From: an uncultured Spartobacteria bacterium | GTDB lineage: Bacteria; Verrucomicrobiota; Verrucomicrobiia; Chthoniobacterales; Chthoniobacteraceae | Reading direction: 5' to 3' | NCBI GenBank assembly: GCA_903919125.1 | Contig: CAIXGS010000052.1 | Location: 62,001 to 126,000, forward strand | DNA: 64,000 bases | In this document: in pieces, positions 2,763 through 50,434 of the stretch | How positions within the stretch are numbered: position 1 is the stretch's first letter | Layout of the letters: every line of letters begins with the position of its first letter | The notes under the pieces: generated by a model | What the model was told of the DNA's origin: nothing | What the model saw: only the letters and a program-made list of their open reading frames with translations | Databases searched by the model: none | Position numbers and translations under genes: made by a program

Positions 2763-3416
2763 TTAGCGAATGAAATAACTTAAATTCTCCAATTCAGCCG
2801 CCAAATTCACCGAACTCACCACGGCGCGCTCCGAGACCTGCAAGACCGCCGGCGCAAAGTTTAAAATCGCCTGTATCCCACTTGAAACAAGATTATTAGC
2901 GACTTCCTGCGCGACGTGTCCCGGAACACTTAAAATCGCGATTTTAATCCCGCGCTCCTGCACAAACCCAGCGAGCGCTTCCATTGGCTGAATCGGGAGA
3001 TTCAACGCCCCAGAACGACTGCGCTCAGGGTCCGCATCAAAGGCACCCACAATTTCAAACCCCTCGCGCTGAAAACCGTCATACCCCAGAAGTGCGCTTC
3101 CGAGCTGTCCGACGCCCACCAGAATAACCGGCTGCAAACTTGCCACACCCATTACCTGCAACAACTTAGCCACCAAGGCGTCAACCCCGTATCCCAAGCC
3201 GCGGGTTCCAAAGTGCCCGAGATACGCAAGATCTTTGCGCAACTGCGCTGGCTTCACCCCAGTCACGTTCGCGAGAGTGGCGGAAGACACAGTCTGTATC
3301 TTGTTGGCTTGAAGTCGCTGTAGAACACGGCAATAAAGCGAGAGTCGGTATACGGTCTTACGGGGGATTACACCTCTGTTCATACTGGGCTGGGGGGCAG
3401 GCGGATTGGGGAACAT
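2763..3416 (-). CDS. rex: Redox-sensing transcriptional repressor Rex
   Basis: Rex binds NAD(H) and releases its operator when the NADH/NAD+ ratio is high, so it de-represses respiratory and fermentative genes. The sequence has the N-terminal winged helix (about residues 15-85, with 'GVKPAQLRKDLAYLG' and 'FGTRGLGYGVDAL') followed by a Rossmann NAD(H) domain beginning 'VILVGVGQLGSALLGYDGF'. The C-terminal helix used for dimer swapping is present. The call extends to the Met at 3416, but Met12 at 3383 would put the start six residues before the conserved Pro-x-x-Thr and fits the family better; neither has a clear ribosome binding site. A perfect consensus Rex operator is found at 50417-50434 upstream of actA. 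I saw no equally good operator before rex itself. Confidence 0.93.
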   Translation of the reverse strand: MFPNPPAPQPSMNRGVIPRKTVYRLSLYCRVLQRLQANKIQTVSSATLANVTGVKPAQLRKDLAYLGHFGTRGLGYGVDALVAKLLQVMGVASLQPVILVGVGQLGSALLGYDGFQREGFEIVGAFDADPERSRSGALNLPIQPMEALAGFVQERGIKIAILSVPGHVAQEVANNLVSSGIQAILNFAPAVLQVSERAVVSSVNLAAELENLSYFIR

Positions 3417-30757: not shown

Positions 30758-31387
30758 TTATTCTTTTAACAACGAACGGATCGCTTCCTCCAAACGTTTT
30801 CCAGCTTCGGCGCTTTCTTCTCCCACGCCTTCAAAAAAACCACGCACCCACCCCTGAGCATCCACGAGAACCAGACGCGTACTGTGTGTGACAGGTTCCG
30901 CAGGATTTTCCGAGCGTGTCAGAGAGAGTTTGAAACCGTGATTGGCCAGCGAAAACACCGAATTCACAGGACCAGTCAAGAAAGACCAGCGTTTATCAGC
31001 ACCAAACTTTTGAGCATACTTCTGAAGCACCTCAGGTTTATCTTTTTCTGGATCGCTGGAAATGGAGAGAAAAGCCACTCGACTTTCACCAACGAAAGCC
31101 TTGTGTAAATCACTCAAGCGACTGGTAAGCGCGGGACACGGGCCCGGACAAGTGGTGTAAAAGAAATCGACCACCCACACTTTCCCCAACATCCCACCAG
31201 AGTTAAACGACTTTCCGTCTTGGTCCGTCAATTCAAACGCGGGAACCTGCCAATACTTTTGAAGAGTACCATTTGAAGGTTCCAGAGGAGCCACAATCGC
31301 AGCAGTAGAGGAAGGCGAAGGCTTGCATCCCGCTAGGATTAAAAACAATGCGGCGATCCAATGAAAACCATGAAACGGAGACTTCAT
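30758..31387 (-). CDS. Sco1/SenC copper chaperone lipoprotein
   Basis: A 209-aa thioredoxin-fold protein that delivers copper to the CuA site of CoxB. It has a lipobox 'LILAGC' (Cys21), the copper-binding C80-x3-C84 in 'YTTCPGPCP', and the distal histidine ligand H168 in 'VTHSTRLVLVD'. All three ligands of the Sco family are present. It would face the periplasm, anchored in the inner membrane. It lies between ctaB (13 bp upstream) and the DUF420 gene (6 bp downstream). Confidence 0.93.
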   Translation of the reverse strand: MKSPFHGFHWIAALFLILAGCKPSPSSTAAIVAPLEPSNGTLQKYWQVPAFELTDQDGKSFNSGGMLGKVWVVDFFYTTCPGPCPALTSRLSDLHKAFVGESRVAFLSISSDPEKDKPEVLQKYAQKFGADKRWSFLTGPVNSVFSLANHGFKLSLTRSENPAEPVTHSTRLVLVDAQGWVRGFFEGVGEESAEAGKRLEEAIRSLLKE

Positions 31388-31400
31388 ATTCCTTCAAATT

Positions 31401-32315
31401 TTAGAAACGGGAAAATGCCAAAAGACCCAGCATCAGTGGAAGGTAAATAATTGACATGAAAAACAGACGTCTGGCGCTGACTCTCGAGCGCTCCATTAAA
31501 AACACCAGTGCTGCACCGCTAAAACAAATATTCAAAAGAGTGGCGATGACTTTATAAAGAACCCCCACTTTACCCAACCAAACGGGCGCAAAAGTGACCG
31601 CTGAAAGTAGTATGGCAAAGATCAACGCCTGAGATGCAGTGAGAAGCCCTTCTTCATCGTTCGGAGGCAACATCACAAAACCCGCGTCCCGATATTCGTC
31701 TCGATACATCCACGCAATCGCGAGGAAATGGGGCATTTGCCAACAAAACAAGATGCCAAAAGGAACCCACGCAGCCCACGCTTCCTGAGAGCCGGAAGCA
31801 GCCCAACCGATCACCGGAGGCAGCGCCCCCGAAACAGCCCCCACCAGCACGCAAAAAGAACTGCGCCGCTTGAGCGGCGTGTAAACCAGTAAGTAAACAA
31901 AGAGAGTGGCCACGGCGAGCAAGGCGGTTAAAGGAGGCAAAGTCGCCCACAAAAGTACAACTCCCCCGAACCCGAGGAAAAGCCCGAGAGCCAACACACT
32001 GGGACGGCGCCAGCGACCAACTGGGAGTGGCCGACTCCGCGTGCGCTCCATGAGGCCGTCTACGTCTGCCTCCATCCACTGATTGAGTGCACCGGCTGAT
32101 GCCGCGACAAGTGAGGTTCCTAAAACGGCGAAAAGTAACGCAAACTGTGCGGGGCCATTGTGGTTGCCAACGCAGTAACCCACCGCAGTGGTAAACACCA
32201 CGAGTAGGCTAAGACGCGCCTTGGTAAGGGTCGAAAGATCCGCCAATAGCCGCGGCCCCTCTTTTGTGGCAATCGCTCCCCCGCCCTTGCCAGCGCCATC
32301 CAGGCGCGGGTTCAT
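31401..32315 (-). CDS. ctaB: Protoheme IX farnesyltransferase (heme O synthase)
   Basis: CtaB adds a farnesyl group to protoheme IX, the first step to heme A. The 304-aa polytopic protein carries the prenyltransferase motif 'NQWMEADVDGLMERTRSRPL', the second loop 'YTPLKRRSSFCVLVGA', and 'PVIGWAASG'. About nine membrane helices are visible. Its start overlaps the ctaA stop (ATGA), so heme O and heme A synthases are coupled. Confidence 0.95.
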   Translation of the reverse strand: MNPRLDGAGKGGGAIATKEGPRLLADLSTLTKARLSLLVVFTTAVGYCVGNHNGPAQFALLFAVLGTSLVAASAGALNQWMEADVDGLMERTRSRPLPVGRWRRPSVLALGLFLGFGGVVLLWATLPPLTALLAVATLFVYLLVYTPLKRRSSFCVLVGAVSGALPPVIGWAASGSQEAWAAWVPFGILFCWQMPHFLAIAWMYRDEYRDAGFVMLPPNDEEGLLTASQALIFAILLSAVTFAPVWLGKVGVLYKVIATLLNICFSGAALVFLMERSRVSARRLFFMSIIYLPLMLGLLAFSRF

Positions 32316-33466
32316 TGAACAACCTCCGCCTGCTGCGTGTGCTTCGCCAAGCTAAAACGCGTATGCAAATGCACAAGCAACGAGCTCAGACTAGCCAGAA
32401 GGCCCGCCCCCAACACCACGTGAAGCGTCGCCAACGTCTTCGGCTTTTGATGTATAACGACAAAAATTCCCAGCGCCGCCTGACAGACGACAAAAAACGA
32501 AGTGCGCCACGCCACCAACCAAATGGGCCGGCCCGGTTTTGAGGCGCGCATGGCTCGAAAATCCGCGTACAAAACCACGCAGAGCACAAACAGAGCCCCG
32601 ATCCGCGTGTGCCCAAAATTGAGGTCTGTGTAAAGATTGTGAACCGACGGCAGCCACCCTCCTTGGGGATTCGCTGCAGGAAACGTCGGGATTGCGAGCC
32701 CAGCTCCCAAATGCCGCATCGTCGCGCCGAGAATCAGCTGTCCGAACACCACAGCCAAGGCAAACCACACCAAAGGGATCGGATTAGTATCAAAACGCGG
32801 TTCGTAAAGAGGTCTGGGTTTGACTAGTAGGGAAAGCCGCACAGCTAGGGCCGCGAGCACTACCAAAAACGTTTGCGCCACGCACCCGTGGATAATTCGC
32901 AAGCGCACCGCCAGATCTACGAGCCCAGCGGTTTCCTGAGTGACGCGCAATCCGCCCAATGTCGCCTGAGAGCACACCAACACAAAGGCTGCGAACGCCA
33001 GCAACCGTTCCGTGCGGCCGATACCGCCCACAGAAAGCTTCGATCGCGCTCCCATCGCTAGAGCGACGGCGAAAGCGACTGCCGCTGGCCAAACACCAAG
33101 GTGCGCGCGTATAGACGGTTCCAGCGCAAGCCAAGAACCCAACCCACCCGCGACAGCCGACACGATCGCCGCCACCCACAGCGCCCGAAGATTACCCCAA
33201 ACCATCGCACAAAGCACCCCGACGCCCAGTCCGACCAAGGCCGCCAAAAGACGATGACCATGCTCCAAGCGCACCGGAAAATTCGCCCACCACCCCTCTG
33301 GATTCAGACTTCCAAAACTTAGTGGCCAGTCCGGCACCGCCATCCCCGCTTGCCAACTGGTTACAAGCCCCCCTACGAAAATTAAACCAAATACAAGCGT
33401 CACCACTAATCTGGCGGTCCAACTAATTTGTTTAATATTCAAAGCTAATTTAACAACACCTCTCAA
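32312..33466 (-). CDS. ctaA: Heme A synthase CtaA
   Basis: CtaA oxidises heme O to heme A in the membrane. The 384-aa protein has about eight helices and conserved histidines in 'VRLEHGHRLLA' (H69/H71), 'RIIHGCVAQTF', 'NFGHTRIGALF' and 'TLHVVLGAG', matching the heme ligands of the family. It also has the GMAVPDWPLSFG block (residues 41-52). It is the first gene of ctaA-ctaB-sco-DUF420. A 157-bp gap separates it from the coxB stop codon, so it may have its own promoter; only a Rex half-site (TTGTGA) is visible there. Confidence 0.92.
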   Translation of the reverse strand: MRGVVKLALNIKQISWTARLVVTLVFGLIFVGGLVTSWQAGMAVPDWPLSFGSLNPEGWWANFPVRLEHGHRLLAALVGLGVGVLCAMVWGNLRALWVAAIVSAVAGGLGSWLALEPSIRAHLGVWPAAVAFAVALAMGARSKLSVGGIGRTERLLAFAAFVLVCSQATLGGLRVTQETAGLVDLAVRLRIIHGCVAQTFLVVLAALAVRLSLLVKPRPLYEPRFDTNPIPLVWFALAVVFGQLILGATMRHLGAGLAIPTFPAANPQGGWLPSVHNLYTDLNFGHTRIGALFVLCVVLYADFRAMRASKPGRPIWLVAWRTSFFVVCQAALGIFVVIHQKPKTLATLHVVLGAGLLASLSSLLVHLHTRFSLAKHTQQAEVVQ

Positions 33467-33623: not shown

Positions 33624-34388
33624 TCAATTCACAGAAGCAGTCGCAGGATGCTGCATAGACATGGTTTCCTTTTGGAACGCGTCGAATGCTTCTTGTTTTT
33701 CCACTAAAATTAACGAGCGCATCGCAAAGTGACCTGCGCCGCACAACTGAGCGCACACAATCTCAAACTTCCCGACCCGAATCGGACGGAACCAAAGGGG
33801 AACACGAGTCCCAGGAATCGCATCCTGCGCGACGCGCATGTGGGGAATCGAGACTGCGTGAATCACGTCCTTTGAGCTAACCTCCAAAACCACAGGACGC
33901 TGGTTAATGACGTGCAACTCATTCTTGGACACAATATCGTCACCGCCAGCTGGGTCAGTTGGATCCAGTCCAAGAGGATTGCTCGGAGTAACAAAAATTG
34001 CGTTTTGGCGACCGAACACACCGTCAGGCCCCGCATAATGAAAATTCCAAGCGTACTGTTCGCCAATGGCGCGGATTCGCATCGCCTCTGATTGATCAGG
34101 CACATCGACGACGCGTTTATTCCAAAGCGGAACCGCAAAACCTAGAAGCAGCGTTGCCTCAATCAAGATCACCGCTACTTCCGCGTGGGACGAAGCGCTG
34201 CCGCGCACGCCGTGATAATCAGCCTTGGGATGCCGAGATTTGCGGAATTTGTAAACAGAGATCAGAAAAAAGGTCCCCCAACATACAAACAACAGCAACA
34301 TAAACCAGTGGCACACTTCGAGCATATGCTCGACAGACCTACCATGCTCAGAGGCGTTGGGAACAATTCCCATCCATTTGTTTAACAT
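33624..34388 (-). CDS. coxB: Cytochrome c oxidase subunit II (CuA)
   Basis: A 254-aa subunit with two membrane helices (about 25-47 and 70-90) and a periplasmic cupredoxin domain. The CuA ligands are H177 ('KDVIHAVSIP'), C212, C216, H220 and M223 in 'CAQLCGAGHFAM'; the usual Glu between the cysteines is Gln214, which can still ligate through its backbone carbonyl. There is no fused cytochrome c domain, so this is aa3- rather than caa3-like, and external cytochromes must donate electrons. Unusually it is the last cox gene rather than the first. No cleavable signal is evident. Confidence 0.94.
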   Translation of the reverse strand: MLNKWMGIVPNASEHGRSVEHMLEVCHWFMLLLFVCWGTFFLISVYKFRKSRHPKADYHGVRGSASSHAEVAVILIEATLLLGFAVPLWNKRVVDVPDQSEAMRIRAIGEQYAWNFHYAGPDGVFGRQNAIFVTPSNPLGLDPTDPAGGDDIVSKNELHVINQRPVVLEVSSKDVIHAVSIPHMRVAQDAIPGTRVPLWFRPIRVGKFEIVCAQLCGAGHFAMRSLILVEKQEAFDAFQKETMSMQHPATASVN

Positions 34389-34392
34389 ATAA

Positions 34393-34662
34393 TTAGCTTA
34401 CGTTAGGGGTGGAAATTCCACTGCCAAATTCCGCATGTGCAGGAAGCGGCGCCTGTCCTTTCTTAACCAAGGAATAGCCGACTAAAGAAATCAACCCGAG
34501 CACAAGAAAAAGGACTCCGAGCATGACAAAGATCGCTCCATTCGCGGCCTCTCCGAGCGGTCCATTAGCGCCCATACACACCGTGCAGGCTGCTGCGGCC
34601 TGATCCAAAGATTGCAAGAGCGTAATGCTCAAAATCCCAAGACTTAGAGTGGAGTGTTTCAT
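34393..34662 (-). CDS. 89-aa CXXC mini membrane protein of the cox operon
   Basis: An 89-aa protein with a signal peptide ending 'DQAAAA', so the mature N-terminus would be 'CTVCMGANGPLGEAANG', followed by one membrane helix ('AIFVMLGVLFLVLGLISLVG') and a short tail. The exposed Cys-x-x-Cys resembles small 'CPVC'-type proteins that I recall from oxidase operons of other phyla; none has an established role known to me. Position between the 61-aa gene (4-bp overlap) and coxB, with GAGGT ahead of its start, suggests a CuA-site assembly or copper-handling role. That role is inferred. Confidence 0.7.
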   Translation of the reverse strand: MKHSTLSLGILSITLLQSLDQAAAACTVCMGANGPLGEAANGAIFVMLGVLFLVLGLISLVGYSLVKKGQAPLPAHAEFGSGISTPNVS

Positions 34663-34844
34663 ATAATGATAGACCTCGCTTTGCGAATAAATCCGATCCC
34701 GTAAATCAACATCGCGAGAGAAGCCGCCGCACAGCCCCAGCCCAACCCATCAGATGCCCCAGTGACGAACGCCCAAGCGGACATTGCACCGCAGAACAAA
34801 ATCGAAACTAAGATAAAGAAGATGTGGAAGGCTTTAAGAGACAT
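34659..34844 (-). CDS. 61-aa two-helix membrane protein of the cox operon
   Basis: A 61-aa protein with two hydrophobic helices ('AFHIFFILVSILFCGAMSAW' and 'CAAASLAMLIYGIGFI') and a basic tail. The opening 'MSLKAFHIFFI' recalls other small proteins encoded in oxidase operons of several phyla, though I cannot name a family. It overlaps the 89-aa gene by 4 bp, so the two are translationally coupled, between the subunit IV gene and coxB. It may be a small oxidase subunit or assembly factor; that is inference from location. Confidence 0.7.
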   Translation of the reverse strand: MSLKAFHIFFILVSILFCGAMSAWAFVTGASDGLGWGCAAASLAMLIYGIGFIRKARSIII

Positions 34845-34933
34845 AATTCGGAGTGGGTACTCAAATAAACTCAGTCTGTAAAATTCGGCAAAAACGCTAA
34901 TTCAAGACGGCTAAGGGCGAGCTGCACCCGGCA

Positions 34934-35317
34934 TTAATGCGTGGCGTGAAACGTTCCACTAATCGGATCGCTATGCGCCAAGTAAGTCAGGAAAAATAGT
35001 CCTGCCGCGAAGATACCAGTCATCACGAGGAACCGCCAGATCGTGATTTTCTCTCCCTTTAAATGCATGAAAATAGCAGCGACTAGGCCGGCTTTGATGG
35101 TCGCCACAATCATACCCACCACGATATTCATGTTTCGGGAACCGAAATCCACATAAGACAGCCCCACAGTGACGCCAGTCAGCACCAATAAAGCGGCGCC
35201 TACCTTTAAATACTCAACAGCGTGCGAAGCAATCTCGGCCGCATTAGCCGGCACATCATGGATAGAAGAGGAATCCAGAACGGGTTGAGAACTATGATCT
35301 GTGTGTGGTGCGCTCAT
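34934..35317 (-). CDS. Cytochrome c oxidase subunit IV-like protein
   Basis: From the ATG at 35317 the product is 127 aa: a hydrophilic N-terminus of about 35 residues, then three membrane helices ('VGAALLVLTGVTVGLSYV', 'MNIVVGMIVATIKAGLVAA', 'FLVMTGIFAAGLFFLTYL') and the loop 'IFMHLKGEKITIWR'. This is the pattern of bacterial subunit IV / CoxD (COX4_pro-like) proteins, which stabilise the heme-copper oxidase. The open frame continues upstream to 35473, inside coxC, and is not used. It lies 14 bp after the coxC stop codon. Confidence 0.85.
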   Translation of the reverse strand: MSAPHTDHSSQPVLDSSSIHDVPANAAEIASHAVEYLKVGAALLVLTGVTVGLSYVDFGSRNMNIVVGMIVATIKAGLVAAIFMHLKGEKITIWRFLVMTGIFAAGLFFLTYLAHSDPISGTFHATH

Positions 35318-35331
35318 CGCTAGAGGAATTA

Positions 35332-36324
35332 TTAAAGGAGATAGAAGATTGGAAACACAAAGATCCAGACAAGATCCACGAAATGCCAGAAGAGACCCGC
35401 GATTTCCACGCGGTTGGCCAGATGTTCTGGGTTGGTCTTGTAAAGTCCAGTTCCCCCTGGAAACGGAAGCCAAAGATAAAGAAACACAAGGATTCCACCC
35501 AGAACGTGTAATCCGTGCAGACCGGTGATGAGGAAATACGTGGCAAAGTAAGTACTGTGTCTTGGAGCGAACACGCTGGCGGACTCGACGTCTTTTGCAT
35601 TGATCACGGCGAGGGTGGTGCTGGTCTCACGAGGCCAGAAGTGGGGCCGATCATTATCCTTGTCTGAAGGATTGGCATTCACTGCATCCACTTGAATTAC
35701 GTAATCATCTTCGGCTGGGGTCACTGCATCATGCCGGCCCGTTTCGTGGGCGAAATGTTCGGCATTGTGTTCCGCCTGATGGGCGTAAGACGAACCCTTA
35801 GGAGCGTCGAGAAGATGTCCCGTGATCTCCCAGCGTGGATTTTGGCCTGTTACTTCAAGATGCTTGTTCCCTAGGAAAGCTTCATATTTTGAGGCTGATT
35901 CCTTCTTAATAAACACACCAAAATGATTGAACTTCGCTGGCCACTCGTAACTGAGTTTGACCGTCAAAAAGATCGCTCCGCACAAAATCGTTATCAACAT
36001 GTACAAACGATACTTTCCTAGCTGCCTCATCTTTAATGCAGCCCACGCGAAAACTACGGTCACTGATGATATAATCAATATCGCCGTGTTCATGGTTCCC
36101 ACTGGAACATTCAATAAACCAGAAGGCCAATAACCTGGCTCCGCGCCAATCCGTAGGAAAATGTAGGCGGAAAACAAACCACCGAACAACATCACTTCGG
36201 AAGCGAGAAACAACCAAATCCCTAACTTTGCACTATACAATCCAGTATCCGGACGAGCCTGCACGGTGTGCGGAACCTCTTTGTCCGTAAAAAGCGGGAA
36301 GTATTTGGAAATCAGATTCGACAT
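35332..36324 (-). CDS. coxC: Cytochrome c oxidase subunit III with large insertion
   Basis: From the ATG at 36324 the protein is 330 aa. N-terminal helices ('LGIWLFLASEVMLFGGLFSA') and C-terminal helices ('ATYFLITGLHGLHVLGGILV', 'EIAGLFWHFVDLVWIFVFPI') are clearly subunit III. Between the fourth and fifth helices lies a hydrophilic insertion of roughly 110 residues (about 137-250), rich in His, Asp, Glu and Asn ('QAEHNAEHFAHETGRHDA'), which ordinary subunit III of about 200-260 aa lacks. It is likely a periplasmic or cytoplasmic loop domain. The upstream Met at 36369 is in the same frame but less likely; 'ATTATATG' is the start context. Confidence 0.92.
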   Translation of the reverse strand: MSNLISKYFPLFTDKEVPHTVQARPDTGLYSAKLGIWLFLASEVMLFGGLFSAYIFLRIGAEPGYWPSGLLNVPVGTMNTAILIISSVTVVFAWAALKMRQLGKYRLYMLITILCGAIFLTVKLSYEWPAKFNHFGVFIKKESASKYEAFLGNKHLEVTGQNPRWEITGHLLDAPKGSSYAHQAEHNAEHFAHETGRHDAVTPAEDDYVIQVDAVNANPSDKDNDRPHFWPRETSTTLAVINAKDVESASVFAPRHSTYFATYFLITGLHGLHVLGGILVFLYLWLPFPGGTGLYKTNPEHLANRVEIAGLFWHFVDLVWIFVFPIFYLL

Positions 36325-36386
36325 ATAATCTCTTAAAACAGGCTCAACCCCAAACTCTCGACGCTGCACCTCGTGGCTAAAACTCT

Positions 36387-38213
36387 CTACACCTTTTCCG
36401 TCTGCGGAATAAAGTCTGTCGGATGCCCCGGAACACTATACTCGTAAGGGCCACGATACACCATCAAGGGCTTATCAAAGTTTCCGTGCGGGGGCGGGGT
36501 CGGTGTGTCCCAATCTAAAGTGGTAGCATCCCATGGATTGCGTCCCACTTTTTGACCAAGCTTCCAGCTGGTGAAGAAGTTCCAAATGAAGACAAGCTGA
36601 AACAGCGCAAGCAGGCCGGCCGAAACAGTCATCACCATGTTCCAGTGCAGCACGGGACCAGCAAGTTGTTCGTAAGTAACGCCGCCATCATACCAGCGAC
36701 GGTGAACGCCCGCCATACCCTGCAAGAACATCGGGAAAAATATTCCATTGATTGTGATCAGCGATCCCCAGAAGTGAACGTGCCCCAGGAACTCGCTCAT
36801 CTTACGACCAGTCACCTTAGGATACCAGAAATACACCCCCGCAAAGAGGCCGAAAATGGTTCCGGGAGCGACCACGTAGTGAAAATGGCCGATCACGTAA
36901 TAAGTATCGTGCAGAAAAAGATCGACAGCGTTGAACGCTAGAGGAATACCCGTCAGACCTCCCAAGCCGAACATCGGCAGGAACGCGGTTGCAAACAACA
37001 TTGGCGTGTTAAACCGAATGGAGCCGCCCCAAAGCGACATCAATAAGGAGGTCAGCAAAATCACGGATGGAACCGAGATCATGATGGTAGTCACTTGGAA
37101 GAAAGCTGCGACCTTGGCGCCCATTCCTGTCATATACATGTGGTGGGCCCAAACGATGAAGGACAGGAAACCCAGCACAAACACTGAGTAAACCATTGCC
37201 TTGTACCCGTGCAACGGCTTGCGAGTGTTGTTCGCGACGACCTCGGAGACGATCCCGATAGCTGGTAAAATCAACACATAGACTTCGGGATGCGCCAAGA
37301 ACCAGAACAAATGCTGCCAAAGGATTGGACTACCTCCGCCGGACCAGGTCTGAGCGACACTTTGGCCGATCATCAAGCCTGTGGGCATGAAGAAACTAGT
37401 GCCAAGTACTCGGTCCGTCAGCTGCATAAAGCCGGCGGCTTCAAGCGGAGGAAAGGCAAGCACGAGGAGGAACGCGGTCACAAACTGAGCCCAAACAAAG
37501 AAAGGAAGTCGCATCCAAGTAAGTCCTGGGGCTCGCAACTGAATGATCGTGGTAATGAAGTTAATGGATCCCAACAGCGAACCGGTGATGTTAAACACCA
37601 TCGCAATCAACCAAATCGTCTGCCCATTCAGCCAAATATTCCCGCCTTCAAGATCCGCAATTCCAGCCAGCGGAGGATATGCAGTCCAGCCGGACTTCGC
37701 AGCGCTACCCGGAACAAAAAAGCTACCGGTCATAATGACGCAGCTCGTAAAAAAGCACCAAAAGCTGGCCATGTTTAACTTGGGGAACGCCATGTCCGGA
37801 GCCCCGATTTGTAGAGGCACCACGAAATTTCCGAAGCCCGCAACCGCCACCGGCACAATTCCAAAGAAAACCATGATGGTTCCGTGCATGGCACCAAAGA
37901 CGTTGTAACCCGCAGCGGTGAGGGCTCCTGCGTCGGTCATCACGGTTTGACCAAACACCGAACGCAGAAAGGCACCTACCATCGGTACGGGCTGTCCCGG
38001 GCTCGCCAACTGCCAGCGCATCACCAACATCAGGAGAAAGCCGAAGAACAGAAAACTCAGTCCTGTCACAGCGTACTGCAGCCCGATGACCTTATGGTCC
38101 GTAGAGAAGACCCACCGCTGAAGGAACCCAAGCTCTGGGTGATGATGCTCGCCGTGCCCATGCTCTTTAGTGGCGTCGTGATGGCCGGTGTCTGCGGTAG
38201 CGATAGTAGACAT
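36387..38213 (-). CDS. coxA: Cytochrome c oxidase subunit I
   Basis: The catalytic oxygen-reducing subunit, 608 aa, with twelve membrane helices. Ligands by family alignment: low-spin heme a H110 and H445, CuB H308, H357, H358, high-spin heme a3 H443 ('IGHFHYV'), and the cross-linked tyrosine Y312 in 'AHPEVYVLILP' with E310 of the D-channel. D140 and N147 at the D-channel entrance ('GAPDMAFPKLN') are kept. The K-channel lysine expected in helix VIII ('P-T-G-I-K') appears to be Leu386 ('VPSVILLTSL'). The N-terminus is His-rich ('HGHGEHHHPE'). It is clearly an A-type heme-copper oxidase. Confidence 0.97.
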   Translation of the reverse strand: MSTIATADTGHHDATKEHGHGEHHHPELGFLQRWVFSTDHKVIGLQYAVTGLSFLFFGFLLMLVMRWQLASPGQPVPMVGAFLRSVFGQTVMTDAGALTAAGYNVFGAMHGTIMVFFGIVPVAVAGFGNFVVPLQIGAPDMAFPKLNMASFWCFFTSCVIMTGSFFVPGSAAKSGWTAYPPLAGIADLEGGNIWLNGQTIWLIAMVFNITGSLLGSINFITTIIQLRAPGLTWMRLPFFVWAQFVTAFLLVLAFPPLEAAGFMQLTDRVLGTSFFMPTGLMIGQSVAQTWSGGGSPILWQHLFWFLAHPEVYVLILPAIGIVSEVVANNTRKPLHGYKAMVYSVFVLGFLSFIVWAHHMYMTGMGAKVAAFFQVTTIMISVPSVILLTSLLMSLWGGSIRFNTPMLFATAFLPMFGLGGLTGIPLAFNAVDLFLHDTYYVIGHFHYVVAPGTIFGLFAGVYFWYPKVTGRKMSEFLGHVHFWGSLITINGIFFPMFLQGMAGVHRRWYDGGVTYEQLAGPVLHWNMVMTVSAGLLALFQLVFIWNFFTSWKLGQKVGRNPWDATTLDWDTPTPPPHGNFDKPLMVYRGPYEYSVPGHPTDFIPQTEKV

Positions 38214-40631: not shown

Positions 40632-42092
40632 TCAGTGTTCGCTTCCAGCGCGTAGCAAAGTGGGCTCCCCAGCTGGCTGGCCAATTTTGAGAGCCATTAA
40701 AAGAAAATGGAGTCCAAAGGCGGCGTGAGCGGCCAAGACAAAGACAAACGAAATGGAATTTCCCCAGAAGTAAGAGGAACCCACTTCCATGACCTGTTGG
40801 AAAGAAGACGCTCCCTCGGATATCGCCTCACCAGCGGCCAGACCGCTCAGCAGCAACATTCCCACCGCCATGGAAGATCCGTAAGCGGCACCTAGGAAGT
40901 GAAAACTAATCAGGCTAGATGAGAGCCATTCACATTCAGATAGCCTAGGCATCATGTAATAGATTGCTCCAAAAAGCACCATCGTGACTGACACATGAAC
41001 CAGAAGACTCTGAATACCAGCATCAAATAGGGTGAATCGCACAACCGAATCCACGGAACGCAGCGAGGCAAGGGCGATCAGCAGTGACGATAAGACCAGT
41101 CCACCGCAGCCGAAAATTGTAAACCGCAGCGATGGAGAACCAGCCCCGTGGTGGCTAGCACCCGCAGAGGCAAGCAGAATGTAGACCAAGGCTGCCACTG
41201 GAACGACAATGAGAATGGAGGCACTTGCAGCGGTGGCCCCCAACCACAAGGGAAGCAGATCCCCGGGTACTTTTGCAGCCAAAGACAGGCCCGCGCAGAA
41301 AAAGTACATCCAGAACATCACCCTCGCGAAAGAGCCCGCTATAATTGGAGCACCGGTCACTTTTGGAACTACGTAGCAGGCCGCACCAAGAGCCAATGGC
41401 ACAAGAAAGAGACGGGTAACAGCCCCAGCGGTCCAGGCGGCCACGATCTGCTGAACCACGCCAGTGACACTGTTGGTGACAATCAAAAGATTACCCGTGA
41501 GCAAACTCAATCCCAGCCACACAAAAGCCGCGATGATAAACATAGCCGCTAAAGAATGATGTTCGTCATCGTGAAATGTGAGAAGCACCCACATCGAAAA
41601 CAGTGCCAAGCCTGCGAAGAACATCAGATACGACGCGATTGGTGACTCCAAGCCATTTAAGGGACGCATCCATCCGCCGAGGGTTGCCACAAGCCCCACC
41701 AATACTCCACCGTTCCAAAGAACCGCTCCAAAAGCCGCCAAGGTGTGTCCTGGCGAAACGCGCCCTGATGTACGCGCAATGATCCACGCGCCCACTCCCA
41801 AAGCAGCGGCGCCACACCACCCGAAGACGAACGTATTTTCAGCCGCCGGAGCGAGACGTCCGTAAGTAAGAAACGAAAAATTGAGGAAATCAGGATGATG
41901 TAATTTAACGGCAGCCAAAGCGCCGAGAATGGTGGACACCAGCAACCAAACCGTGGCCGTGAGGAAAAGACCAATCACCACTGGCCGCACCGAGGCGTCG
42001 ATAGCGGAACGCGAGGGAGCCAGCACGCTTGCTGCTGCGGCATCGAGTGGCGAATGAGAAGGGGTTGCCTCTAGGGCGGCGGCTTCAGTCAT
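40632..42092 (-). CDS. CcoN-like protein lacking heme and CuB ligands
   Basis: A 486-aa, roughly twelve-helix protein recognisable as cbb3 subunit I by 'FLTYGRLAPAAENTFVFGW', 'YVVPKVTGAPI' and 'MVLFGAIYYMMPRL'. By manual alignment from memory of CcoN, the ligands are gone: the heme b His is A84; CuB His are G223, S270 and L271; heme b3 and second heme b His are I360 and S362. The fold and flanking motifs remain, so this is a coherent gene, not a decaying one. It lies 16 bp before the CcoO-like gene. It is likely a non-catalytic scaffold for CcoO-like or other cytochromes. Catalysis as an oxidase is very unlikely. Confidence 0.85.
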   Translation of the reverse strand: MTEAAALEATPSHSPLDAAAASVLAPSRSAIDASVRPVVIGLFLTATVWLLVSTILGALAAVKLHHPDFLNFSFLTYGRLAPAAENTFVFGWCGAAALGVGAWIIARTSGRVSPGHTLAAFGAVLWNGGVLVGLVATLGGWMRPLNGLESPIASYLMFFAGLALFSMWVLLTFHDDEHHSLAAMFIIAAFVWLGLSLLTGNLLIVTNSVTGVVQQIVAAWTAGAVTRLFLVPLALGAACYVVPKVTGAPIIAGSFARVMFWMYFFCAGLSLAAKVPGDLLPLWLGATAASASILIVVPVAALVYILLASAGASHHGAGSPSLRFTIFGCGGLVLSSLLIALASLRSVDSVVRFTLFDAGIQSLLVHVSVTMVLFGAIYYMMPRLSECEWLSSSLISFHFLGAAYGSSMAVGMLLLSGLAAGEAISEGASSFQQVMEVGSSYFWGNSISFVFVLAAHAAFGLHFLLMALKIGQPAGEPTLLRAGSEH

Positions 42093-42628: not shown

Positions 42629-43828
42629 TTAGTTATGAAGGTTCACGGATCCTACCAGACGCGGGTCACGGGTGGGAAAGGTGTTAGAAGAGACGAGCCT
42701 CCGGAAATAGAGACCGCCCGCGGCGCCTCCCACGGCCACCAGAGAGGCTAAATCGTAGATGCTCGGAGAAATTCCAGTTTGATGTAGCGAAGGCAAAACG
42801 ATCACGTAGATATCGAGAATCTCCATTAAGATCATCCATCCAGCTACTGCACAAATGATCCGAGGATTCTTTTTTACGAATTGGAACAAGAGAAGTGCAA
42901 ACGGTATAAAAAAGCGCCCTATTACCAGTATGGTGCTTAAGAAATGCCAGCTTTCAGTGTTTCTAACTTTAAAATAAATGGTCTCTTCTGGGATGTTCGC
43001 GTACCAGATTAGCATGTACTGACTGTAGCCAATGTACGCCCAGAAAACGGTGAAGGTTAACATGAACTTACCCATAATATGGTAATGTTCTGAGTTCACT
43101 GCTTTCAGATAACCTGCGTTTTTAAGACCGGTAATCACCAGTACCAAAAGCGCCATTGAACTGCCCAGCGCTCCAGCGAAAATATAAACACCCCACATGG
43201 TGGAAAACCAATGGTAATCCAGCCCCATGAGCCAATCGACGGCGGCGAATGTGAGACACACTCCTAAAATTGGGAGACCGGCAATCGCGGCCGTACGCAT
43301 CGCATGAGTGTGCGAACTGGCGCCGTCTGTATCTTGTGCGATGGAGCGGTTTCTCAGCACAAGCGCCACACCTCCCAAGCCAGCGAAGTAAATCACATAG
43401 CGAATGATAAAAAAGGTGTGGTTCAAAAAGGGTGTCTTTGAATCCAATAAAGGGTCAACTCCGGGTGCCATATTCCACCACTTCCATAATATCGGTGCGC
43501 AGAACACCAGTAATGGCAGAAAGAACAGAGAAAGCATTGGAATCCCACCCGCGATGTTCTCCATTTGGCGCCGGACTAACACGCTCCACTCAGAATCCGT
43601 CGCGTGATGAAGGATGGTCCAAAATAAAGCTCCAACGCTTATCGCGAAGATCACGAAAAAACCGAAAAGCCACGAGAAGGCAAACTGCTCGCGAGAGTTG
43701 AGAAGTCCAATAGCGCTCACCAAAATTCCGAGCGCAGACAAACCGAAGCAAATCGAGGACCATTTTTTGCCGATGGTCGGCTCGAAATTTTCAGCGATTA
43801 AAGTAGAAGAATCCGTCGGGTGGCTCAT
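42629..43828 (-). CDS. actF: Alternative Complex III subunit ActF
   Basis: ActF is one of two large polytopic quinol-interacting subunits of Alternative Complex III. The 399-aa protein has about ten helices and the signature 'FSWLFGFFVIFAISVGALFW', 'AAVDWLMGLDYHWFSTMWG' and 'FWAYIGYSQYMLIWYANIPE'. All are highly typical of ActF. The complex oxidises menaquinol or ubiquinol and reduces periplasmic cytochrome c, or donates directly to the oxidase. It lies between actE (33 bp) and the Pro-rich protein gene (1 bp). Confidence 0.95.
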   Translation of the reverse strand: MSHPTDSSTLIAENFEPTIGKKWSSICFGLSALGILVSAIGLLNSREQFAFSWLFGFFVIFAISVGALFWTILHHATDSEWSVLVRRQMENIAGGIPMLSLFFLPLLVFCAPILWKWWNMAPGVDPLLDSKTPFLNHTFFIIRYVIYFAGLGGVALVLRNRSIAQDTDGASSHTHAMRTAAIAGLPILGVCLTFAAVDWLMGLDYHWFSTMWGVYIFAGALGSSMALLVLVITGLKNAGYLKAVNSEHYHIMGKFMLTFTVFWAYIGYSQYMLIWYANIPEETIYFKVRNTESWHFLSTILVIGRFFIPFALLLFQFVKKNPRIICAVAGWMILMEILDIYVIVLPSLHQTGISPSIYDLASLVAVGGAAGGLYFRRLVSSNTFPTRDPRLVGSVNLHN

Positions 43829-43861: not shown

Positions 43862-44497
43862 TTACTGAACTTTCCCAGACTGGCTGGCTTGCAGTGCGCG
43901 GATGTGAGCGATGATCGCCCAACGGTCCTCGACAGCGATGCTGGAACCGTAAGCACCCATCGTGTTTTTACCGTTCGTGATGGTAGAAAATATCTGGCCA
44001 TCGGGCTGCCCCTTGATTCGATCATCCATTAATGTGGCGATGGTTACCAACCCGTAAGCCTTGGCAATCCCGTTACCATTCCCAGTGCGATCGTGGCAAA
44101 CGGAGCAGAAAATTTCATACCGCTGGCGTCCCCGATCCAGAAAAGCTTCGTTCACAGTAAACGGAATCCCGCTTCCATAAACGTCTCCCATAGCCCCCGT
44201 ATCCTTGTAATCAGGCCGACTGGTGAAGGCTGAATCTTTAGTGAGATTGTTCACGCCAGTCTGATAGTAGCGGCCAGACAGATTGTAACCCACAGGGATA
44301 GTTCCCTTCACAGGCACATGATCTGCGCGCCCATCGGCAAAGAAGGTTGAGCTATGCTGAGTGATCACCTTGGGCTGGTGCTTCATGTCAGGCGTAATCT
44401 GAAGCGGCGTGTTGGAAAACTTTTGCCCGCGGAAGCCCGCCATAGCGACAACCGCCAAAGCAACAGTCAAAAACAGAAAGAGAAAGGTACGCACCAT
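43862..44497 (-). CDS. actE: Alternative Complex III cytochrome c subunit ActE
   Basis: A 211-aa monoheme cytochrome c with an N-terminal signal or anchor helix ('TFLFLFLTVALAVVAMAGF'). The heme motif is C131-S-V-C134-H135 in 'YEIFCSVCHDRTGNGNG', with 'NTMGAYGS' supplying the Met ligand. Upstream blocks 'ADHVPVKGTIPVGYN' and 'GIPFTVNEAFLDRGRQRY' are diagnostic of ActE. It hands electrons from the pentaheme ActA to the oxidase or to mobile cytochromes. It is 4 bp after actD. Confidence 0.94.
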   Translation of the reverse strand: MVRTFLFLFLTVALAVVAMAGFRGQKFSNTPLQITPDMKHQPKVITQHSSTFFADGRADHVPVKGTIPVGYNLSGRYYQTGVNNLTKDSAFTSRPDYKDTGAMGDVYGSGIPFTVNEAFLDRGRQRYEIFCSVCHDRTGNGNGIAKAYGLVTIATLMDDRIKGQPDGQIFSTITNGKNTMGAYGSSIAVEDRWAIIAHIRALQASQSGKVQ

Positions 44498-44501
44498 AAC
44501 G

Positions 44502-45047
44502 TTAGTCGTGAATGAGGGTGACGTGTTTCCCGCCGATCTCTTCTAAAAGAGCCTTTGTGCGAGTTTCGGAAAACTTTGCATCCCGCGCCTCGATGACCAT
44601 CATAAAACCGTCGTCTGTGAAACGAGAAAAGCGATCCCAGTTAAACACTGGGTGATGGAAGCGAAAAAGGTTATTGAACAGAAACATCGTCCCAACGGCT
44701 GTGAATGCGGAAAAAAGCACCGTCAATTCAAAAATGATTGGGAAGAAGGCGGGTCCCGTTCGCCAATCATACGGTTTGCCGTTCACGATGATAGGATACA
44801 GAACAAAAGAAGGAATTGAAACAAGTGCTACGCCTATGAGCAAACCCAGTAGTCCCCCCACAAAGACCACCGCGCTCAGCTTTGATTTCCCCAATCCCAT
44901 CGCAGCATCCATCCCATGAACTGGAAATGGAGTGTGAACATCCCAATGAGAGAAGCCTTGTTCGCGAATTTTTTCGGCTGCACTCAAAAGCGCCCCTGCG
45001 CTCTCAAATTCAGCTCCCAGACCGTACACTTTGCGTGACTGCGACAT
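44502..45047 (-). CDS. actD: Alternative Complex III subunit ActD (DUF3341)
   Basis: A 181-aa protein of the DUF3341 family. It has a soluble N-terminus ('YGLGAEFESAGALLSAAEKI'), the typical 'GFSHWDVHTPFPVHGMDAAM' block, two membrane helices ('VVFVGGLLGLLIGVALV' and a second from 'FFPIIFELTVLFSAFTAVGT'), and a cytoplasmic end with 'DGFMMVIEARDAKF'. ActD is a structural subunit without cofactors. It lies 6 bp after actC and 4 bp before actE. Confidence 0.94.
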   Translation of the reverse strand: MSQSRKVYGLGAEFESAGALLSAAEKIREQGFSHWDVHTPFPVHGMDAAMGLGKSKLSAVVFVGGLLGLLIGVALVSIPSFVLYPIIVNGKPYDWRTGPAFFPIIFELTVLFSAFTAVGTMFLFNNLFRFHHPVFNWDRFSRFTDDGFMMVIEARDAKFSETRTKALLEEIGGKHVTLIHD

Positions 45048-45053
45048 GAGCGA

Positions 45054-46466
45054 CTAGTGTTTAGGGTGATGGTGATGAGGATCAGCCTCGGGAAGGACGC
45101 CCTTGACTTCAGAGATGGCTATCATCGGAAGGAAGCGCATGAAGAGAAGGAACAGACTCAGGAATATCCCGAACGTACCCACAAAGGTTAGAATTTCTGT
45201 AGTCGACGGCGCGTAATGCCCCCAAGAACTCGGAAGGAAGTCCTGCGCCAAAGAAGTGACGATAATGGTGAAGCGTTCGAACCACATCCCCACGTTCACA
45301 AACTGACAGACAATAAAGACCACGATATAATTGGTTCGCATCTTCTTGAACCAGAAAATCTGGGGAGAAATGACGTTACAAAACATCATAATCCAGTAGG
45401 CCCACTGATACCATCCTTCGCCATTCACATTGGCTCTTGCAGTAAAGAATGTGAAGCTTTCGAACTTATTCGCCCCATACCAAGCCACGAACAACTCCAT
45501 CAAATAAGCGTATCCAACGATTGAACCCGTGAGCAAAATAATCTTTGCCATCTTATCGACGTGATTTTCCGTAATCATGTCGTTTAATTGAGGGAAGATT
45601 TTCGCCGCAGGTAACATGATGGTCAGAACCATCGCGAAACCGCCGAAAATTGCGCCCGCGACGAAGTAGGGCGGGAAAATGGTAGTGTGCCACCCAGGCA
45701 TGATCGAAGTTGCGAAGTCAAACGATACAATCGAGTGAACGGACAACACCAAAGGGGTGGATAATCCAGCCAACAATAAGTAGGCCATCTCGTAGTGCCG
45801 CCACTGACGGTTCCCTCCACGCCATCCGAGTGCGCCTATTCCGTACAGGGTACGGGCGAGCTTGGACTTCGAGCGATCCCGCAGGGTGGCCAAGTCGGGG
45901 ATCAAACCGACAAACCAGAAGAGTACGGAGACGGAGAAATAAGTGGAAACGGCGAAGACGTCCCAGAGTAGCGGCGAACGAAAATTGGGCCAGATTGCGT
46001 TTGTGTTGGGAATCGGGGCCAAGAACCAAGCGTACCAGACTCGTCCCACGTGGATCGCAGGGAAAATCCCCGCGCACACTACCGCAAACAACGTCATCGC
46101 CTCGGCCGCCCGGTTGATCGAGGTCCGCCACTTTTGGCGCGTAAGGAACAAAACGGCGGAAATGAGCGTGCCGGCGTGACCGATGCCGATCCAAAACACG
46201 AAGTTTGTGATGTCCCACGCCCATCCATTGGGATGGTTTTCACCCCAGACACCGACCCCGTTTGAGATCTGGTAAATGATACAGATCAAGCCCATGAGGG
46301 CGATGGGTGAAGTGATGCACATGGCAAGCCACCACCACTTGGGAGTGGGTGCCTCCACGATGTCGCACACGTTGTGCGACACCCAACTGATCGAACGATC
46401 GTGCGACACCAGCGCCGGGCGCTTTAAGTCCGCCGGCGTTTCGAGTGATAGAGCGTTTTTAGACAT
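45054..46466 (-). CDS. actC: Alternative Complex III subunit ActC (NrfD family)
   Basis: A 470-aa NrfD/PsrC-type membrane protein with about ten helices, forming the main quinol-binding site. Marker segments are '[19 protein letters not shown]', '[20 protein letters not shown]', '[20 protein letters not shown]' and '[20 protein letters not shown]', which are strongly conserved in ActC. The C-terminus is His-rich ('DPHHHHPKH'). Its first base overlaps the last base of actB, so translation is coupled. Confidence 0.96.
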
Positions 46467-49400
46467 TACGCGTGTCCTCCGGTTGGCGTTTGAGCCGATT
46501 CATGCTTCTCAGAGTGGCCGTGACCGCCTTTCGAAGCGGAACCTGCGCGCGCTGCATCGGGCATCTTGGGATTGGGATTGCGAATGCGGGCTAGGTACCA
46601 GACGCGATTTTCAGTGTTTAGGTATTCCAGCAAGCGATAGCCGCGTTGGTCATCTTTAAGTTTTGAGATTTTGCTCTCCGGATTACGGATATCTCCAAAA
46701 GTGATGGCGTCGGTGGGACAAACCTGAGCGCAAGCCGAAGTGAAAGCGTCTGCCGGGACGCGTGGCTGAGCAGTCTGACCCTGAGAGTCACTGGCGTGCA
46801 CTTTCGCTGTGATCTTCGCTTCCTGGATGCGTTGCACGCAGAAGGTACATTTCTCCATCACCCCACGCATACGCACCGTGACGTTCGGATTTTTCTGCAT
46901 TTGCAGAGAATCAGCCATTCCCTTTTCAGTGATCAAATTCCAGCGGTAGAGGCTGGTGATGGAACGCTCGTTGTAATCAAAGAAATTAAAGCGCCGGACC
47001 TTGAACGGACAGTTGTTGGCGCAATAACGGGTCCCGATACAACGGTTGTACGCCATCACGTTGAGGCCGTCCTCTGAGTGAACCGTGGCATTTACAGGAC
47101 ATACCGTTTCGCAAGGTGCGTTCTCGCATTGCTGGCACATCAAGGGCTGACTAACCATTTCTGGTTCATCGACGTCGCCGCCTTCGCTCGCGAAATATCG
47201 ATCCGTACGCATCCAATGCATTTCACGGCCATTAATCACCTGCTCCTTGCCGACAATTGGAATATTATTTTCCGCCTGACACGCCGTCATACAAGCCGCA
47301 CATCCGATGCAGCTATTCAAATCGACCGTCATTCCCCAAGCGTGAATGTCATCCAAAGGAGGATGCGCGTAGAGCGAGAAGTTTTCAGGGGCATGGGCGT
47401 CGATGCCCATTTTCTTGAAGAACGTCTTGTCATCTGCCTTTTCAGTCCATTCGGCTACGGTAGCCTGGCGGGTGAGATCAGCGCCACGCCCTTCGAGTGC
47501 GCCGTGTTCCTGAGTCACAGCCAGCGCATACTTGCGGCCAGTCTTGACGGCGGTCACACCCACGCGGAACCGGCTTTCGGTCGAAGTCAGCAATGGGAAA
47601 ACGTCGACACCGACATTGCGGCCGAGACTGCCCACCTCGGTTCGACCGTAGCCAACCGCGACGGAGATAGAAGCGTCAGCATGGCCGGGAAGAATCAGCG
47701 CGGCGATTTCCAAAGATTTGTCGCCAACGGTCAACTTGAGAACGTCGCCAGTGTGAACACCAAGCTTCTTTGCGGCGGCTAGGCTAATGAGCGCAGCGTT
47801 GTCCCAAGTGAGCTTCGTCACGGGATCTGGCAGTTCTTGGAGCCATCCGTTGTTAGCGTAACGGCCATCGTCCACCTTGGAATCGGTGATGAAAACGAGT
47901 TCAAAATCTTTGTCAGCGCCTGTGAGAACCGGAGCCTCGGCCAGCGCCTTTGCAACAGAAGCTGTCTGTAGAGTGGCAGCCACAGGCTTGGGCGCAGAGC
48001 CTTTCCTGAACCCAGATTTCAAAGTATCCACCCAATCCGCGGTGATATCACCCTTTTTAGGGGATGAGGCGAGGAAGGTGTCACGCACCAGATCCATAGG
48101 ATCGGCCTCGAGACCTGCGATCTTCGCCAACAACTCATTGACGCTTACCCCATTGTAAAGCGGAAGAATGACAGGCTGAACCACCATGTAACTGCCATCA
48201 GAAGCTCTAGCATCATCCCACTGTTCGAGATAATGAGCTGCGGGAACATGCCAATGCGATTTTGCGGCGGTCTCGTTCACTTCCATCCCGAGATGAATGA
48301 CGTTCTTGGCCGCAGCTTGAGCCTCAGACCAACGGATGTCGGCCGGAGCGTTGAAAACAGGATTGGCGCCCAAAATGAACAGCGCGTTGGTCTGCCCTTT
48401 TTTGAGCGTCTCAGCGAGTGCAGCGATGCCCACCGTTGGGGCGGTGGCGGATTTGCGCAATTCGAGCGTCTTTCCAACAGCCCCCAACGCCGCGTTTATC
48501 GCAAAAGCAAGCGCCTGAACTGCGACCGGTTGACGACGCCCGGCCAAAACCAGAGCCCCGCCCTTGTGCGCCCATAGATCCGCGGCCGTTTCCTCGACCC
48601 ACTTGTCCTTGAACTTGGTTTCCGGCGCCTTGAAGCTGCTCGCCAAGGATGCAAGACCCGCGTCTCCGGAAAGCTTGGCCAATTCCGTCGCCAAAGCCTT
48701 TAGGAAAGCACCCGCACGACTGGCCGGCAAACGCAGCCTGTGGTCCGACATCCCGCCGGTAAGCGTGTAGCGGTTTTCCACCACGTACAGACGGTTCATC
48801 TTCGACTTCGGGCCGTCCACTTTGCGCTTAGCCGCGAAACCGCGAACCGAAGCAATTTCGCCTTCGACACCCAAAATATCGCGATCCACCGTCAAAACAA
48901 TGTCCGCACGGTCCAAACGCGGTACCGCCTCAAGATCCGGACCGAAAGCGGCGGCGACAGCGGCGTTTTCCAGTTCATGGCCATTTGGTTCGTAGGAAGC
49001 CCAAACGGCTTTTGGGTATTTCGCGAGAATCAGATGACGCAGACGCTCGGCGGTGGGCGAGACCGCACCGTCCGTGAGGAAAGCAAGATCGGCTCCATCC
49101 CCAGCGGATTTCAAAAGGGCCGCAAGTTCGGCATGGAAGGCTGCGAGATCGGACTTTTTCCCGCTCGAAAGCACAGACTGAGAACGTTGCGGATCGTAAA
49201 GATCGAGAACGGAAGACTGCGCCCAGATGTCCGTAGCCCCTTTGTTTACAGGGTGCATCGGGTTACCTTCGACCTTGGTCGGACGTCCATCAAAGGTCGT
49301 CACCACAAGAGGCATCGCCCCCGTGCGGGACGGCATGGCGGATGTAAAGAACAACGCTTTACCCGGAACAGACCACTCGACCCCTTTGGTGAAGGGGACT

Positions 49401-49642
49401 AAATACTTCATCGGACGGCGACAAGCCGAGAGGCTCAGGCCCGCTAGGGCAACCGAGGCGCCCATGAATTGGAGAAAACCACGGCGAGAAACCTCATTTC
49501 CCTCCACTTCGGAAGCTCCTTGGGGAAATTCACGATGCAACCAACTCCGAAATTCGGTCGTATCCTGTAGCTGGCCTAGCGAGCGCCAATAACGCTTGCC
49601 GGTCTGAGCTTCCGCTGGGTGTTGAAAAACGCGCTTGCTCAT
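46466..49642 (-). CDS. actB: Alternative Complex III Fe-S/MopB subunit ActB
   Basis: A 1058-aa fusion typical of ActB: a Tat-like N-terminal signal ('[20 protein letters not shown]', near residues 50-75), a molybdopterin-oxidoreductase-like domain without evident cofactor-binding cysteines (about 85-730), and a C-terminal iron-sulfur domain (about 770-960). The cluster motifs are '[12 protein letters not shown]', '[14 protein letters not shown]', '[13 protein letters not shown]', and 'CTFCVQRI' with '[10 protein letters not shown]', enough for three [4Fe-4S] and one [3Fe-4S] as known in ActB. It passes electrons from ActC to ActA. It follows actA by 6 bp. Confidence 0.97.
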
Positions 49643-49648
49643 TTTTGA

Positions 49649-50305
49649 TTAACGGTGGCAACCGGCACAATTCTTCACCGGAGGGTTAACGTGCCAATCT
49701 TTGACTAATGCCGCGCCGATTTCGCGCTGCGTCTTGTCGCCCTCAGGCTTCCAGTCCAAATTTGTCACCTCGGCAACTGGGCGCAAATAATCAGCTGGAT
49801 TGCGGTGACAGTCCAAACACCAAGCCATGGAGTGCGACTCCGCATGGTAAACCACGTCCATTTCGTTGACCTTCCCGTGACAGCTCACGCAACTCACCCC
49901 ACGGTTCACGTGCACCGAGTGATGGAAATAAGCGTGCTCAGGAGTCTTGTGAATCTGCACCCACTCTACTGGCTTGCCGGTCTGCCAAGAATCCCGCACC
50001 ACCTGCAACTTTGGACTAGTGCCCTGGATCTGCGAGTGGCAGTTCATGCACACTTGGGTTGTCGGGATGTTAGAATAAGCCGACGTCTCCACATAGGAAT
50101 GGCAGTAGCGGCAATCCATGTTGAGCTGCCCTGCGTGGATTTTGTGCGAAAAAGGAACGGGCTGTGCAGGTTGGTAACCCACACGCATGTACTCGGGGTT
50201 CAAATAGTACCACACCCCCGCACTCACTCCCCCTCCGAGGGTAAGTAAGCAAAAGATGATTTTGAGAGGGAGCCAGTTACTCCAACGTGGAAAAATATTC
50301 GCCAT
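49649..50305 (-). CDS. actA: Alternative Complex III pentaheme cytochrome ActA
   Basis: A 218-aa cytochrome with one N-terminal membrane helix ('IIFCLLTLGGGVSAGVWYY') and five CxxCH motifs: CRYCH, CMNCH, CVSCH, CLDCH and CAGCH, the exact number in ActA. 'PVPFSHKIHAGQLNMDCRYC' and 'EHAYFHHSVHVNRGVSCVSC' are characteristic. It is the first gene of the Act-cox locus, and a perfect Rex operator lies about 110 bp upstream at 50417-50434. Confidence 0.96.
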   Translation of the reverse strand: MANIFPRWSNWLPLKIIFCLLTLGGGVSAGVWYYLNPEYMRVGYQPAQPVPFSHKIHAGQLNMDCRYCHSYVETSAYSNIPTTQVCMNCHSQIQGTSPKLQVVRDSWQTGKPVEWVQIHKTPEHAYFHHSVHVNRGVSCVSCHGKVNEMDVVYHAESHSMAWCLDCHRNPADYLRPVAEVTNLDWKPEGDKTQREIGAALVKDWHVNPPVKNCAGCHR

Positions 50306-50381: not shown

Positions 50382-50410
50382 ATTTAAGGCGCGCCGGATT
50401 GGGGAATCAA
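50382..50410 (-). promoter_or_regulatory. Possible sigma-70-like promoter of the act operon
   Basis: On the minus strand, TTGATT (50405-50410) and TTAAAT (50382-50387) are separated by 17 bp, matching four of six bases in each consensus box. It lies just downstream (in the direction of transcription) of the Rex operator, six bases from it. The match is modest and the assignment is tentative. Confidence 0.35.
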
Positions 50411-50416
50411 GTGAGA

Positions 50417-50434
50417 TTGTGAAATTTTTCACAA
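50417..50434. promoter_or_regulatory. Rex operator (ROP) upstream of actA
   Basis: TTGTGAAATTTTTCACAA fits the published Rex consensus TTGTGAA-WWWW-TTCACAA at every position. It lies in the 179-bp gap between the rhomboid-like gene and actA, about 110 bp upstream of the actA start. The rex gene is at 2763-3416. It predicts NADH/NAD+-responsive control of the Act-cox locus. Confidence 0.88.

Follow-up and report, generated by a model that had tools for sequence, protein, structure and literature searches.

Sequence evidence for a Rex-type operator at the Alternative Complex III operon and for probable NADH-responsive control of respiration genes in Verrucomicrobiota

In Streptomyces avermitilis, Rex represses the nuo, atp and cyd genes through the same motif that we describe here, and the operators of nuo and atp cover the -35 element (PMC5355995). 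In Escherichia coli, the sites of FNR at -50.5 (ndh, pdhR) and at -53.5 (cydAB) are also listed as repressing (PMC3688515). The kind of system is, hence, already known, including the control of nuo, atp and cyd by Rex in Streptomyces. The main comparative study of Rex regulons reportedly dates from 2012. In a search of the literature, whose incomplete coverage leaves priority uncertain, we found no paper linking a Rex regulon with Alternative Complex III (ACIII) and no description of a Rex regulon in Verrucomicrobiota. Three things appear to be new: ACIII as a target, the occurrence in this phylum and an operator at a fixed upstream position. Judging from sequence comparisons, in many soil and water Verrucomicrobiota the NADH sensor Rex appears to control much of the respiratory chain, including ACIII.

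The window, which is the whole stretch of 64,000 nucleotides that was analysed, contains at positions 50417-50434 the palindrome TTGTGAAATTTTTCACAA (TTGTGAAAAATTTCACAA when read on the minus strand), a predicted Rex operator that matches the Rex consensus TTGTGAA-WWWW-TTCACAA with 0 mismatches. Both its coordinates and its agreement at all positions are exactly as claimed in the original prediction, and so is its location upstream of actA: it lies within a 179-bp gap between a co-directional gene, ending at 50485, and actA, whose ATG (50305, minus strand) is found 111 bp away. This is the sole match in the window at up to 3 mismatches, for which shuffled sequences yielded a mean of 0.14. Pattern searches for the operator over the 4.34-Mb genome retrieved three exact matches to TTGTGAANNNNTTCACAA, and one more with a single mismatch; the numbers expected from base composition for the whole genome are 0.0085 and, at up to one mismatch, 0.39. 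The three perfect sites precede nuoD (complex I), atpB (ATP synthase, with the site located after obgE) and actA (ACIII/aa3 oxidase), so that all of them stand before oxidative phosphorylation operons. The operators of nuoD and atpB had been missed in the original prediction and, being the same as that of actA, they suggest that the ACIII operon belongs, as one arm, to an oxidative phosphorylation regulon. Two genome matches with two mismatches were rejected as operators, as they are near or in unrelated genes and their count is within chance expectation.

The genes downstream of the operator, all on the minus strand, form a complete actA-F series, and their identification as ACIII was upheld by the Pfam family of ActD (PF11821) and by the match of ActB and ActF to the solved ACIII structures 6f0k, 6lod, 8k9e and 6btm. 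The series comprises actA, for a pentaheme cytochrome c (49649-50305), whose start, ATGGCGAATAT, is conserved in the genus; actB, for a fused molybdopterin-like and Fe-S subunit (46466-49642); actC, of the NrfD family (45054-46466); actD (44502-45047); actE, for a monoheme cytochrome c (43862-44497); and actF (42629-43828; 217 bits to ActF of 6f0k). After it come consecutive cytochrome genes and the genes for an aa3-type cytochrome c oxidase and its assembly factors: subunit I (36387-38213) is in the same gene run, followed by subunits III and IV (34934-36369), subunit II (33624-34388) and the assembly genes for CtaA/Cox15, a UbiA family protein and Sco1 (30758-33466). The name "Act-type quinol oxidase", under which the locus had been presented, needs correction, because ACIII belongs to the quinol:cytochrome c oxidoreductases, and the oxidase that follows it here is of the aa3 type and uses cytochrome c. 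Between the genes for subunits IV and II there is a 545-bp gap (34388-34934) that may hold a separate promoter, in which case the actA promoter may not drive subunit II and the assembly genes. The act gene run also includes a gene for a CcoN-like heme-copper oxidase subunit I (40632-42092, minus strand), adjoined by FixO-like and diheme cytochrome c genes. Aligned to PDB 9g6b, this subunit appears to have other residues in place of the heme and copper histidines, and 20 homologues from the order share only one invariant His column; the protein looks like a conserved relative of the oxidases that has no metal centres.

The original prediction would have been refuted if close relatives lacked the site before actA; instead, the site turned out to be conserved throughout the family, it also precedes actA in further orders of Verrucomicrobiota, and it tracks rex (see below). 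We searched 57 genomes, the own one and those of relatives, for ActB and examined the region ahead of actA in 41 order-level ACIII loci. A perfect operator was found in 29 of these 41, and in all 12 searched genomes of the genus. It stands 77-123 bp upstream of the start of actA in 27 loci, and about 300-320 bp upstream in two more. In the genus alignment the operator forms a block of nearly all invariant columns, and conservation is lacking in the DNA further upstream. In a wider sample of 80 ACIII loci from the named collection, allowing up to 2 mismatches, the actA operator occurs in Chthoniobacter flavus Ellin428, in subdivision-3/Pedosphaera-like genomes, in Verrucomicrobiales and in a few others, with perfect sites also in the second and third of these groups; among these 80 loci it was not found in Opitutae. 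Several records of the collection are doubtfully named, for instance a bin labelled 'Acidobacterium' with an ActB that falls among those of Kiritimatiellae, and they were therefore treated as groups of the ActB tree and not as taxonomy. In five subdivision-3/Pedosphaera-like actA operators, C replaces T at position 2, giving a variant half-site, TCGTGAA or ACGTGAA, that they share.

Relatives yielded 60 additional operator sites, a few of which, three in number, could not be assigned to a target gene. Most of the 60 precede atpB or nuoD, and others precede mqnE (menaquinone synthesis), a polyprenyl diphosphate synthase gene, sdhC, cydA (cytochrome bd), nuoB, nuoE and, in one case, pgk. With the exception of pgk, the assigned targets are thus further respiratory and quinone genes.

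The claim that rex itself is present in the window, at 2763-3416 (minus strand), was confirmed: the product scores 233 bits with NF003995 (cut-off 126), the family of the redox-sensing transcriptional repressor, and it matches PF06971 and PF02629, that is, the N-terminal DNA-binding and the C-terminal Rossmann domains, over its whole length, as well as PDB Rex chains over residues 14-217. Its Gly-rich nucleotide loop is conserved, and its DNA binding is predicted to depend on NADH/NAD+. We discarded the proximity of rex as evidence, since gene and operator are 47 kb apart in unrelated gene neighbourhoods and rex lacks an operator of its own. Autoregulation was likewise rejected: the window shows no operator close to rex, and in the rex loci of ten relatives even the best match has 4-5 mismatches. 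A search for Rex in viral contigs found none.

Sites and rex occur together across genomes. At the order level, considering genomes at least 90% complete, at least two sites were found in all 32 genomes with rex vs. one of 13 without it (p = 4.5e-10). In 47 further genomes, nearly all from Verrucomicrobiota, rex and the actA site are both present in 16 and both absent from 28, with rex alone in two and the site alone in one, so that they agree in 44 of 47; all these genome counts ignore shared ancestry. The ActB tree, with 76 rows, provided 11 well-supported independent pairs differing in rex; the site changes with rex in 5-6 of the 11 and in the opposite direction in none, which is only marginal in a sign test (p about 0.03). 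Five order-level genomes with rex and ACIII, G017, G037, G038, G039 and G048, have no actA operator, and they count against an explanation by Rex and its operator. The last four do carry operators at other genes for respiration or quinones (atpB, nuoD, mqnE, polyprenyl synthase, cydA). Conversely, an actA operator is present and rex was not found in L269 and G035; the latter is a draft that is 84% complete, and in both cases rex may be absent from the assembly rather than from the genome.

Co-occurrence by itself cannot name the binding protein, and the palindrome might owe its presence to chance or be a conserved element with some other function, such as the site of another regulator whose gains and losses parallel those of rex. 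We consider this very improbable, because the perfect sites outnumber the chance expectation so widely and all precede respiratory operons, because the consensus that they match is that of a regulator which the genomes themselves encode, and because the site was lost with rex in separate lineages. TGTGA-N6-TCACA is the CRP consensus, and the 18-mer contains it exactly; for this reason, a CRP/FNR-family protein was evaluated as a rival binder. No CRP-type helix-turn-helix scored above the cut-off in this genome, whose assembly is 95% complete: the two weak matches are GntR regulators, and cNMP-binding domains appear only in long frames devoid of such a helix-turn-helix. Moreover, sites are not associated with CRP genes (p = 1.0), three genomes contain CRP without the site, and the invariant flanking T/A and inner AA/TT are needed by Rex and not by CRP. 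We therefore rejected CRP/FNR as the binder, an identity that is extremely improbable given the lack of both a homologue in the genome and a gene-site association.

The position of the operator within the promoter bears on how it might work. On the minus strand, a predicted -35 element, TTGATT (50405-50410), starts 6 nt after the operator and is followed, with a 17-nt spacer, by a predicted -10 element, TTAAAT (50382-50387), which is conserved in the genus as TTNAAT; a generic promoter scan of the locus gave no more matches than shuffled sequences. A TTG is present 5-7 nt after the operator in 68 of 73 act, atp and nuo promoters, vs. 4 of 73 on the opposite side. Among the five exceptions it is found at 8 nt in one and at 16-17 nt in three, one helical turn further, and is missing from the last. 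Since a plausible -10 mostly occurs at 17-18 nt spacing, the operator centre is predicted to lie near -50 in these promoters. Other placements exist: several Verrucomicrobiales have their actA operator 21-52 nt upstream of the ATG with no TTG following, and the operators of mqnE and polyprenyl synthase are at or near the start codon. These are places suited to blocking and they argue for repression.

Taken together, the comparative evidence supports control of the ACIII operon by Rex, as originally predicted, and we think it likely that NAD+-bound Rex represses an oxidative phosphorylation regulon through functional operators and is released by NADH. At a low NADH/NAD+ ratio, Rex-NAD+ dimers would bind the operator, thereby covering the actA promoter from about -42 to -59, and would impede RNA polymerase, most likely because the alpha C-terminal domains and the upstream contacts of the polymerase would be shut out. 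Rising NADH would make Rex leave, and the ACIII/aa3 operon would be derepressed. The same would happen jointly at nuoD (complex I) and atpB (ATP synthase), where the operator and its position are the same, and this would let respiratory capacity rise with NADH supply.

The same geometry could be read with the opposite sign. Rex-NAD+ at about -50 or -61 might contact RNA polymerase and activate respiration genes in the oxidised cell, so that a build-up of NADH for want of an electron acceptor would switch these genes off. The fixed distance of 5-7 nt to the -35 element is in line with this, and the three offsets of 16-17 nt, which hint at a specific polymerase contact, would fit activation too. 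A usual position of activators is -61.5, and it would also be sensible for a strict aerobe to turn respiration off in anoxia. We nevertheless regard activation as improbable, because Rex represses the same operons in Streptomyces (PMC5355995), because in other verrucomicrobial targets operators belonging to this family coincide with or follow the likely transcription start, and because FNR sites at -50.5 are repressive in E. coli (PMC3688515). A broader proposal, which we find unlikely, is that verrucomicrobial Rex acts through polymerase contact, as activation or anti-activation, from a fixed, helically phased spot upstream of the -35 element, unlike the operator-over-promoter repression of Streptomyces, to tune complex I, ACIII/aa3 and ATP synthase jointly.

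Repression by Rex-NAD+, our preferred reading, would tie NADH sensing, by means of one operator, to the entry enzyme, to the complex that oxidises quinol, along with its oxidase, and to ATP synthase, in a large and poorly studied phylum. ACIII gains a candidate regulator, and the lineages that lack rex, and that lack the operator at the same promoter, offer a natural experiment.

Comparison with known systems places this putative regulon close to that of S. avermitilis, with which it shares the operator consensus, the regulator family and, as direct targets, nuo, atp and a terminal oxidase. They differ in that the oxidase arm is cyd in S. avermitilis and ACIII plus aa3 here, and in that the rex gene of S. 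avermitilis has its own operator, whereas none was found before rex here. The atp and nuo operators also lie over the -35 element in S. avermitilis and just upstream of it here, a difference in placement that counts against our preferred reading. A repressive dimer site upstream of the -35 element of respiration genes has a counterpart in E. coli FNR, although protein family, signal and DNA motif are different. The Rex protein aligns over residues 17-216 with that of Thermus aquaticus (3ikt, 1xcb), from another phylum, and both keep the Arg-Lys-Asp-Leu segment of the DNA-binding domain and the Gly-rich nucleotide loop. Finally, the arrangement actABCDEF followed by an aa3-type oxidase is also that of the ACIII clusters behind the solved structures.
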